Positions 13,972 to 51,985 of a DNA stretch of 64,000 bases are shown here, piece after piece. This DNA is from an uncultured Clostridia bacterium (GTDB taxonomy: Bacteria > Bacillota > Clostridia > UBA1381). How positions within the stretch are numbered: position 1 is the first letter of the stretch; each line of letters starts with the position of its first letter. Below the pieces are notes generated by a model, which had not been told where the DNA came from, ran no database searches, and worked only from the letters and a program-made list of their open reading frames with translations. The stretch spans positions 1 to 64,000 of the forward strand of contig CANQKM010000004.1 of NCBI GenBank assembly GCA_947624485.1, read 5' to 3'. Both the position numbers and the translations under genes were made by a program.

Positions 13972-14988
13972 TTACTCCTCCTCAATAAAATCGGCAATAC
14001 TGTTTAATATGTACTCGGCTTTCATGTCCTCGAAATATCCGCGCGACCTTTCGCCGTTTATACCTGTAAGCACGGCGCAGAAGTCCGCGCCCATCGCGCG
14101 CGCCGCGAGTATGTCCGCGCCCGCGTCGCCGACTATAAGCGCGCGTTTTATCTTATCCTTATCGTACAGCCCTTCGACTATCCTTTTATCGTCGTAATCC
14201 ATGCCGTAAAGCGCCTTCAGGAACATATACGGGTGCGGCTTTGTGAGCGCGTTGTTGCCGAGCGCTTGTTCCGCCGCCTCAACGTGGTCGTAGCAGCACA
14301 GCCCGTCAGTGGCAAAATATTTAAGCGCGCCCCAATCGGAAAGAGGTCGGAGCATTTCTATACCCGGTCTGCCTGTTCCGGTGCAGACGCGCTTGCCCGA
14401 GCTTAAAAGGCGCAGAATTTCAAGCAGCGTACTCTTTGGTATTATCGGTTCTTCCTTTTCGATAAGTCCGCTTTTAAAGCCGTTTTGCGACGGTTTGCCG
14501 TTAAGAGCGTCGCCCAGAAACCACTCCTGGAACAGTCCGTGCATCTCACGCCACATTTTGCCGTTGCGCCTTAAATCCTCCGCACTTTCGCCCGTGACGG
14601 CGGCGCACCTTTCCGCGAGAGTGTCATATGCGTCTATGATGTTGTCGGGAAGCTTTTTCGCGTATTCGAGCGCGGCGGTGAAAATATCGTTGTCCTCGCC
14701 GCCCGCAAGCCGCGCGCACAGCACGGTAACGTAACCCAAATCCCAGTTTGAGTTTACGCCCTTAGCTTTCAGCAGACCTATAAGCTTATCGCCGCAGAAA
14801 ACGCGTTCGCGTATTTTGTCCGCGCGGCGCATATACATTTCCGTATCGACATCCGCGCCGGCGCACATACTCATGTATTCCGCGGCCGTGAGAGCCGCGC
14901 TTGTCCAGTAGTTTTCCTCGCTTGTGATAACGCCGTCCATATCAAATATAACGGTGTCGTATTTGCTTAAAAATGATTTCAGCTTCAT
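13972..14988 (-). CDS. HAD-superfamily hydrolase
   Basis: DTVIFDMDGVITSEENYW motif I; VCTGTGRPG; KPHPYMFLKAL; ALIVGDAGADILAARAMGADF motif IV. Confidence 0.88.
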   Translation of the reverse strand: MKLKSFLSKYDTVIFDMDGVITSEENYWTSAALTAAEYMSMCAGADVDTEMYMRRADKIRERVFCGDKLIGLLKAKGVNSNWDLGYVTVLCARLAGGEDNDIFTAALEYAKKLPDNIIDAYDTLAERCAAVTGESAEDLRRNGKMWREMHGLFQEWFLGDALNGKPSQNGFKSGLIEKEEPIIPKSTLLEILRLLSSGKRVCTGTGRPGIEMLRPLSDWGALKYFATDGLCCYDHVEAAEQALGNNALTKPHPYMFLKALYGMDYDDKRIVEGLYDKDKIKRALIVGDAGADILAARAMGADFCAVLTGINGERSRGYFEDMKAEYILNSIADFIEEE

Positions 14989-15019
14989 CGTATCGTTCCT
15001 TATGCTTTGTTTCATGTAC

Positions 15020-15049
15020 AGTATACCATTTTTATACGCCTGCTGTCAA
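15020..15049 (-). promoter_or_regulatory. Sigma-A-type promoter for the HAD-fumB operon (TTGACA-18-TATACT)
   Basis: Reverse strand TTGACA GCAGGCGTATAAAAATGG TATACT upstream of 14988. Confidence 0.7.
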
Positions 15050-15062
15050 TCATGGCACGCAT

Positions 15063-15217
15063 AAAAAAGAGATACCCATTCAGACCTCCGTAAAATGCTT
15101 AAAGCAAATCCGAACATTGATAGGGTATCTCTTTAAGGGGGTAGAGTTGCTTTTCCAAGTTATGGTGGTTCAAAGACCACAGGCAGAAATGCCGGACTTG
15201 CGAAAAACAACTCTATA
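15063..15217 (-). ncRNA. Candidate stand-alone structured small RNA, about 155 nt, family not identified
   Basis: Reverse-strand promoter TTGACA-17-TATACT (15251-15223), then ATAGAGTTGTTTTTCGCAAGTCCGGCATTTCTGCCTGTGGTCTTTGAACCACCATAACTTGGAAAAGCAACTCTA (AGAGTTG/CAACTCT and CAAGT/ACTTG stems, GTGGT..ACCAC hairpin, GGCA..TGCC hairpin), then AAGAGATACCC...GGGTATCTCTT-TTTT terminator hairpin. No convincing ORF. Confidence 0.7.
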
Positions 15218-15222
15218 AGCGC

Positions 15223-15251
15223 AGTATAACAAATCACGAGGGAAATGTCAA
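15223..15251 (-). promoter_or_regulatory. Consensus promoter driving the candidate ncRNA
   Basis: Reverse strand TTGACA TTTCCCTCGTGATTTGT TATACT, 17-bp spacer. Confidence 0.75.
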
Positions 15252-15257
15252 TACGGG

Positions 15258-16727
15258 TTAATGCAGTTTTACGGTCAGCGCGTTATCATAGTCAAGTTTT
15301 ATGTCCTTGGGATATGTGACGGTAAGTGAGCTTATCGATTGTTTAATTTCTTCATTGCTCACGTTTTCGTCGGGAACAATGTAATATCCCGTTTCGTCGT
15401 ATCCTCCGAATATGAGCCGCGCGGTGTAAGAATTTGTGTCGTAATGCACTCTGTCGCTGCGGTCTGACATCGGAGTAATACCGCCCGGAGCAGCCTCGGC
15501 GCCGCTTTCATCGCGCAGACCGAATTTAATTCCGCACGGCACAAATCCGTCCTTGTAATAGTCAATGCTTACCACGCCGCCGTCCGCGCGCACATCAGTC
15601 ACGACTATGCTTCCCAATCCGTCGGGCAGTTCATATCGTATCGGATAATCTCCGATTTTGTGCGATATTTCGCCCGTTTCCACGCCGTCAGACAATATCG
15701 GTACAATTTTGATTTCCTCGGTGTTCGTATCGGCTTTCAGAAATTCGTATGAATTTTCCTCACCGATAACGTCTGTGTCAAGAATGTCGAGCGATACGCC
15801 GTTTTCGTCAAACAATGCGACCTTCTCCGCGATATTGCCGCCGCCCGTTGTTACAAGCTGATTGCCGAACGGCGACAGCACGATTTTCTCTATTGACGCG
15901 TCCGTATCGGGAATATTTATGTTAGTCTTCGCCGTAACGGTCGCTTCCTTGGCGGCTTTCCTGTCTATATCCGTGGCAACGTACCATATTCTTGACTTTT
16001 CCTCGTCCGTCAAACCGCGGCTCTGAAGCTCCGTCAGGTCTATCGGATTTTCGCTGTCATGCCTGTCGGCGAGAACCTCAACCTTAATCGTATCGGGCAG
16101 GTCGGACGCGGATATATTGTACTTGTACACCGTTTTGAACGTGTACCTGTCGGCGAAATATCCCTGTGTGCTGCTGTGGTTGCCGGCAACACTTACATCG
16201 TGCTGTCCGTTTATTCTGACCTCAACCCACATCTTCTCATACGCCTTTGCGTAGGCGTTGTGACCTATCGGCTCACTGCCCTCGTAAAACTGTTCGTCGG
16301 ACGTAAGCGTGCAGAACACGTGAAGATAGTTATCGTCGGCAGCCGCATTATCAAGCGTCAGCGTTATTCCGTCCTTTGTGACGCTTTCCCCTATTTGCGC
16401 GCTGTATTTTGCCAGTTCTTCCGTATCGGTTATTTCGTTTACTCTGTCGTTTTGGAAATAGCTTATGATACTGCCGATAGCCTCACGTCCCGCCGGCGAC
16501 GCGGCAAATGCCGCCGCGGTGCATATTACCGCCGCGCACGCCGCTATAAGCGAGGCTTTAAGTATTTTGTGCCGCATATACCTCTTCCTTTCCGAAGGGG
16601 CGGCGGTTATGGACGCTGTCACTCTGCGCGTAATATTGTCCGCGCTTATTTTAAGGTCGGTGTCGGGAATGCCCGTTTCCGATATAAGCTCTTTAAGTCT
16701 TTTATTCATTTCCGTACCCCCTCTCAA
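15258..16727 (-). CDS. DUF4179-type membrane/anti-sigma-like protein encoded after an ECF sigma factor
   Basis: N-terminal cytosolic segment, TM helix (ILKASLIAACAAVICTAAAFAASPAGREAIGSIISYF), large extracytoplasmic domain with IGESVTKDGITLTLDNAAADDNYLHVFCTL. Confidence 0.75.
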   Translation of the reverse strand: MRGGTEMNKRLKELISETGIPDTDLKISADNITRRVTASITAAPSERKRYMRHKILKASLIAACAAVICTAAAFAASPAGREAIGSIISYFQNDRVNEITDTEELAKYSAQIGESVTKDGITLTLDNAAADDNYLHVFCTLTSDEQFYEGSEPIGHNAYAKAYEKMWVEVRINGQHDVSVAGNHSSTQGYFADRYTFKTVYKYNISASDLPDTIKVEVLADRHDSENPIDLTELQSRGLTDEEKSRIWYVATDIDRKAAKEATVTAKTNINIPDTDASIEKIVLSPFGNQLVTTGGGNIAEKVALFDENGVSLDILDTDVIGEENSYEFLKADTNTEEIKIVPILSDGVETGEISHKIGDYPIRYELPDGLGSIVVTDVRADGGVVSIDYYKDGFVPCGIKFGLRDESGAEAAPGGITPMSDRSDRVHYDTNSYTARLIFGGYDETGYYIVPDENVSNEEIKQSISSLTVTYPKDIKLDYDNALTVKLH

Positions 16728-51871: not shown

Positions 51872-51900
51872 TTGAAATTCCGGAACGAATGGTGTATAAT
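51872..51900 (+). promoter_or_regulatory. Promoter TTGAAA-17-TATAAT in front of a candidate sRNA
   Basis: TTGAAA TTCCGGAACGAATGGTG TATAAT. Confidence 0.6.
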
Positions 51901-51906
51901 AAGGGT

Positions 51907-51985
51907 AACATTGTTTGAGTACAATGTTACGTTCATATACAACAAAGCCACCGATGATCGCACGTCGGTGGCTTTGTTGCGTTTT
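51907..51985 (+). ncRNA. Candidate small RNA of about 80 nt (hairpin plus intrinsic terminator)
   Basis: TAACATTGT-TTGAGT-ACAATGTTA hairpin (51906-51929), then ACAAAGCCACCGA-N10-TCGGTGGCTTTGT (51942-51977), directly downstream of a consensus promoter; no ORF. Confidence 0.5.

Follow-up and report, generated by a model that had tools for sequence, protein, structure and literature searches.

On its minus strand, between the genes of a DUF4179 protein and a HAD-superfamily hydrolase, the window (the whole stretch of DNA analysed, 64 kb in length) holds a real small RNA (sRNA) gene of no known family; this conclusion, together with the link of the gene to a family of hairpin RNAs, is well supported. 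Promoter, structure, covariation, homology, modularity and patchy presence were all observed, and no Rfam family matched. The best explanation, to which we assign a probability of about one half, is that of a stand-alone gene made of two modules, an orphan of an antisense hairpin-RNA family that would act like RNA-OUT, CopA or RNAI. Sequence comparisons suggest that this is a little-known, lineage-restricted family of exchangeable RNA modules, present in related gut bacteria.

The sRNA promoter is of the sigma-70 type and occupies positions 15223..15251 of the minus strand, with 11 of 12 consensus matches. The original prediction had read TTGACA-17-TATACT on the reverse strand, and this is what was found: the -35 box TTGACA (15251-15246) begins 7 nt past the DUF4179 stop codon and is followed by a 17-nt spacer and a TG-extended -10 (TGTTATACT) ending at 15223. 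Promoters of the same type were seen again at other loci. With its start placed ~7 nt past the -10 and its end at a T-run, an RNA of ~154 nt (15063..15216, minus strand) is probably transcribed. The neighbouring genes, on the same strand, provide context only: the DUF4179 gene (15258..16727) lies upstream and is preceded by a gene which, from a reading of its open frame, we take to encode an ECF-type sigma factor, and the HAD gene (13972..15015) lies downstream. A promoter scan confirmed that the HAD gene has a separate promoter (TTGACA-18-TATACT, 15020..15049, minus strand), located after the sRNA T-run, and the sRNA is therefore not simply a leader, as had been argued. When the 36 promoter-like sites of the window were compared for the longest helix following them, counted as contiguous bp enclosing 45–95 nt, the sRNA site alone exceeded 10 bp, reaching 14 bp; two others reached 10 bp.

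The minimum free energy of the ~154-nt RNA was −61.2 kcal/mol, compared with −32.2 (s.d. 3.9) for shuffled sequences (z = −7.5), and none of 200 shuffles folded as well. Together with the near-consensus promoter and the T-run, this upholds the proposal of a stand-alone structured RNA having its own promoter and terminator. The RNA folds into two hairpins, H1 and H2. H1 (15142..15215, minus strand) is a branched hairpin with a 14-bp basal stem, including one G-U, in which 15215-15202 pair with 15155-15142. The AGAGTTG/CAACTCT and CAAGT/ACTTG pairings originally described for it are both present, but the basal stem is twice as long as the 7 bp then listed. The basal stem encloses the CAAGT/ACTTG helix (15200-15196 with 15160-15156) and two small hairpins, namely the predicted GGCA/TGCC tetraloop hairpin (GGCA-TTTC-TGCC, 15193-15182) and GTGGT-CTTTGA-ACCAC (15180-15165), which makes H1 a three-way junction. 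A C-rich linker, CCCCCTT (15135..15141, minus strand), joins H1 to H2 (15063..15134, minus strand), an imperfect hairpin with conserved internal loops that doubles as an intrinsic terminator; within it AAAGAGATACCC (15134-15123) pairs with GGGTATCTCTTT (15077-15066), and its 3' end is the T-run at 15068-15063. This is the succession of C-rich linker, long imperfect second hairpin and T-run that had been anticipated.

Compensatory changes, which the original prediction had named as a check, were looked for in homologues and found in both hairpins. Across five H1 sequences 94.7% of cells pair and 7 pairs are changed on both sides, as compared with at most 54% of cells and at most 2 doubly changed pairs in controls with slid partners. 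For H2, with five distinct sequences, the figures are 97.1% and 5 pairs, against at most 50% and at most 1 in the controls. All these sequences are from metagenome-assembled genomes; few as they are, they give a consistent signal that both hairpins are conserved as structures. The H1 loop CUUUGA is conserved, and the loop plus flank GGTCTTTGAACCAC is identical in the window and in G034 while the stems drift, as expected if loops are retained for pairing. The strand opposite to H2 reads DTHSDLRKMLKANPNIDRVSL, and a search for a protein with this motif found none. A match to 20 of 21 nt of H2 lies elsewhere in the genome of the window, at G000:C18:22125-22145 (L003), where it covers the KANPNID codons of a terminase-like ORF of 589 aa and is in register with the opposite-strand frame of H2; it is probably due to chance.

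Rfam cmscan of the region gave no match, either at gathering or at relaxed thresholds up to E ≤ 5, in agreement with the initial failure to assign the RNA to a known family. In a scan of near relatives only tRNAs scored above the Rfam cut-off; the window itself contains neither a tRNA nor a tmRNA. The sRNA resembles 6S RNA in being stand-alone, rod-like and about 150–200 nt long. It differs in that its ends are unpaired, it has no single central bubble and no covariance model matches it. The fold consists of two separate hairpins devoid of a closing end-to-end stem, and a 6S-like fold is excluded because the 5' and 3' ends do not pair, the same ground on which it had been set aside before.

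The distribution of both hairpins is patchy. H1 is found at the same locus in the window's genome (G000), G011 and G008, and at other loci in G034 and G005; weak H1 matches in G020 and G041 proved unrelated. Of 95 genomes sampled from the order, six contain H2. A H2 covariance model run on a 392-genome sample of the class gave strong matches in G000 and G024 alone, short matches in G088 and G293 being set aside, and a H2 pattern scan of 85,462 species genomes added no genomes beyond chance matches, the matches outside the bacterial family being of this kind. Viral contigs and phage and plasmid collections contained no relative of the sRNA or of the polyvalent domains described below; viral matches to the promoter pattern were ordinary promoters with no hairpins. 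Separately, the genome of the window has a shortened and decayed H2-like hairpin with a T-run at G000:C4:225912-225973 (L002), flanked on one side by a carbon-starvation-protein-like gene and on the other by a convergent gene.

Within this distribution the parts of the gene occur in different combinations. H2 follows H1 in the window, G011 and G008; in G010, at the window's locus, it stands behind a different promoter and an unrelated 5' hairpin; in G006 it follows a GGAGT-type hairpin and in G024 it follows a promoter directly. G005 has both flanking genes at the window's locus and lacks the element. As judged from these loci, H1 and H2 are independent modules that have been exchanged as units, with promoter, hairpin and terminator modules swapped at one chromosomal site. 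The GGAGT-type first hairpin of G006:C24 has relatives antisense in the polyvalent-gene linkers of G037 and G014, and two of its stem pairs covary (CAGTGGAGT/ACTCCGCTG, TAGCGGAGT/ACTCCGCTA, TAACGGAGT/ACTCCGTTA). In G011 (C6, L010) the window's locus carries, between the DUF4179 and HAD genes, a ~0.9-kb array of five tandem promoter-hairpin units; in three of these the internal loop is a symmetric CUA/GAA and the promoter is of a second type (TTGACAAGC...GATACAGTATA).

Two more promoter-hairpin units were identified in the window's own genome, such genome-wide counts resting on pattern searches. One (G000:C4:111752-111781; L117, L138), a branched hairpin with a 14-bp stem, forms the 5' leader of an adenine-deaminase-like gene and is conserved in G005:C32 and G010:C117; in the three species the strand opposite to it has stayed open as a frame resembling a linker (TEDVDAERLGQTPIPHKENHATSSVDTSITNSEKNVNTV). 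The other (G000:C1:203076; L118) is a stand-alone promoter, hairpin and T-run with related units at G011:C2:13917 (L135) and G008:C4:107360 (L140). The inner stems of these three units differ with compensation, and the G011 and G008 copies also have common flanks. Leader, stand-alone and nested copies indicate that the units exist both as chromosomal genes and within genes of mobile-element type.

The nested relatives reside in genes for polyvalent proteins, which are known from phages and conjugative elements and are effectors deployed on invasion (PMC5512222). The open frames that hold the promoter-H1 relatives of G034:C265 and G005:C5 in antisense orientation are 2155 and 2204 codons long, respectively, and the relatives occupy the linker just past an LPD3-like domain; one copy of this domain scored above the Pfam cut-off and two were weaker. 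Proteins of this set also match ART-PolyVal and PBECR3, and one antisense hairpin follows a PBECR3 RNase-like domain; polyvalent genes with LPD3, PBECR and ART-PolyVal domains are the hosts of the sRNA relatives. At least eight further promoter-hairpin units are antisense in polyvalent-gene linkers. The linker hairpins differ in sequence and have in common the promoter, the spacing and a closing stem, and several units end in T-runs (seen in the window, L127/L128, L139, L131 and L135). Across genomes, domains of one type are accompanied by hairpins of one type (G005 and G034; G037 and G014). A search with PF18760 across the class found no consistent antisense hairpin in the linkers beside ART-PolyVal domains elsewhere. 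In the main text of the paper on polyvalent proteins the terms 'antisense', 'noncoding RNA' and 'small RNA' are absent (PMC5512222). As a separate observation, a promoter, hairpin and T-run at G006:C25:25233 (L131 / L223) lie beside a polyvalent-gene fragment (NENVKHSVDTNAESED), which suggests that a polyvalent gene decayed around this unit.

Five polyvalent ORFs contain 13 antisense and 6 sense promoters (at least 5 + 5 matches), and exact TTGACA occurs 9 times antisense and never in sense. A strong hairpin stands behind 10 of the 13 antisense promoters, 3 having none, and 4 of these 10 promoters had not been used in finding the ORFs. For 16 of 18 hairpins the fold of the promoter strand is more stable than that of the opposite strand, and G-U pairs number 52 versus 17, which points to an RNA on that strand more than to a DNA palindrome or to structure in the mRNA. 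These strand and promoter counts are partly biased, since the borders of the 18 hairpins had been set on the promoter strand and the promoter pattern had itself led to several of the ORFs. A linker motif that recurs includes the codons E-N-V-K, near-identical between modules; the -35 box is antisense to these codons, and the valine codon is GTC in every ENVK linker examined; as the copies may share ancestry, this constancy is not an independent test.

RNA-OUT is a stable stem-loop. Like the nested units, RNA-OUT of IS10 is short (69 nt), has its own promoter and is encoded opposite a mobile-element gene (PMC5006887). By analogy, this anatomy of RNA-OUT and CopA (short, self-promoted, antisense and structured) appears to match the nested units best. 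The units differ from RNA-OUT, CopA and RNAI in lying inside the coding region at domain borders, several per gene, instead of covering a ribosome-binding site. The window copy differs further: it is short, built of stem-loops and intrinsically terminated, as are cis-antisense RNAs, but it stands alone in the chromosome, intergenic rather than opposite a gene as its relatives in polyvalent ORFs are, and it has a second hairpin; its pairing is a prediction. An antisense RNA of Neisseria pilE also has its promoter within a variable, modular gene (PMC4402397); it is long and covers the whole gene, as opposed to the short, self-terminated nested hairpins.

In the preferred explanation, the first module, promoter plus H1, would be an orphan chromosomal member of a lineage-specific group of self-promoted hairpin RNAs whose other members lie antisense in linkers of giant prophage or conjugative-element polyvalent genes, typically just past an LPD3-like domain. 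The second module, H2, would be a conserved terminator hairpin, used also with other 5' hairpins or alone. Hairpin units may be shuffled between the chromosome and mobile-element genes, and the chromosomal copy could represent a domesticated, trans-acting version whose loops pair with the mRNA of incoming elements carrying the matching linker. This RNA-OUT/CopA-type mechanism is proposed by analogy and uncertain. No target was identified for the sRNA, as a search of its own genome (91% complete) for a gene with the matching LPD3-like domain gave none, and this weighs against antisense and immunity readings alike. A 17-nt match, with one mismatch, between the third stem of H1 and a chromosomal metabolic gene was not accepted as a target. 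Stem changes in the window copy lower its complementarity to the coding relatives, so that a structural or protein-binding role fits as well as pairing. If transcribed, the units would constitute an undescribed sRNA gene family that uses the same DNA twice, as a protein linker on one strand and as a folded RNA complete with promoter and terminator on the other, and would provide a testable link between large modular phage or conjugative effectors and host-kept small RNAs.

The nesting itself allows a tentative and unlikely generalization to a new class of nested genes, according to which polyvalent genes of prophages and conjugative elements would harbour, antisense in the linkers between domains, self-promoted structured RNAs matched to the adjoining effector domain, acting as RNA antitoxins or as domain-specific antisense regulators, while chromosomes would collect orphan copies and arrays as RNA-based immunity. 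The rival reading, in which linker hairpins are RNA antitoxins against the adjacent domain and the chromosomal copies and arrays (window, G011) confer immunity to incoming polyvalent effectors, is judged unlikely. Type III RNA antitoxins have a different layout, consisting of sense-strand repeats upstream of the toxin. The hairpins do adjoin LPD3-like domains on their C-terminal side, and one lies past the PBECR3 RNase-like domain; domain and hairpin types recur together, and the tandem array of G011 recalls orphan immunity loci. The pairing of domain and hairpin is weak evidence for an antitoxin, however, because adjoining DNA is inherited together anyway. The structural model obtained for the LPD3-like domain was of low quality (mean pLDDT 58), so that a fold search on it was uninformative and an RNase fold could not have been revealed. 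Deployment of polyvalent proteins on invasion would suit an antitoxin, yet LPD3 has no known activity (PMC5512222).

The occurrence of the hairpins in frame as well as between genes is also what a selfish palindromic element would produce, of the Rickettsia palindromic element or MITE kind, with promoter and RNA fold as by-products. Such palindromes are known in frame in proteins and between genes in Rickettsia and as QMITE1 and QMITE2 of Coxiella; sRNAs are produced from QMITEs, and there are sigma-70 promoters in QMITE1 (PMC3733652, PMC5896051). The relatives in polyvalent ORFs are in frame, the locus of G005 is empty, and one insertion was seen, an extra 93-nt palindrome in L221 ahead of the hairpin that L219 has alone. 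Against this, the units are not copies of one repeat family but many unrelated hairpins with a common promoter and layout, confined to polyvalent-gene linkers and a few chromosomal loci. A MITE would be present in many similar copies, whereas copies per genome are few: the window's own genome has one H1 and a few promoter relatives with unrelated hairpins. Neither terminal repeats nor a target duplication were seen, and compensatory changes, with G-U pairs on a single strand, preserve the structure. This origin is considered quite improbable.

An ordinary double terminator, or a leader belonging to the HAD gene or to the DUF4179 operon, in either case lacking an RNA function, would account for the intergenic position and for the T-run that ends H2. 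It is very unlikely, since a near-consensus promoter stands directly ahead of H1, the HAD gene is promoted separately, both hairpins covary and H2 occurs at unrelated loci with its own promoter. A riboswitch or HAD leader would share a transcript with the gene and be kept beside it; G005 keeps the HAD gene without the element, and H2 occurs at other loci without a HAD gene. Least probable of all is a recombination aid, in which effector modules would be swapped more readily thanks to the hairpin and the antisense transcription at their borders, the chromosomal copy being a by-product, for which the position of the hairpins at domain borders of modular genes, the near-identical promoter codons (ENVK) and the influence of antisense RNA on Neisseria pilin variation (PMC4402397) speak, but which leaves the stand-alone copies with terminators and the G011 array unexplained.

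Two other sites of the window gave observations of their own. On the minus strand at 345-240, a promoter precedes a 10-bp helix with 74 nt enclosed, which covers the start region of a serine-recombinase-like gene and is possibly a leader structure. At 51872-51980, in the gap that separates a dGTPase-like gene from a convergent gene, a promoter-like TTGAAA-17-TATAAT precedes two strong hairpins, of which one has a stem of 17 bp; this could be a terminator or another small RNA.
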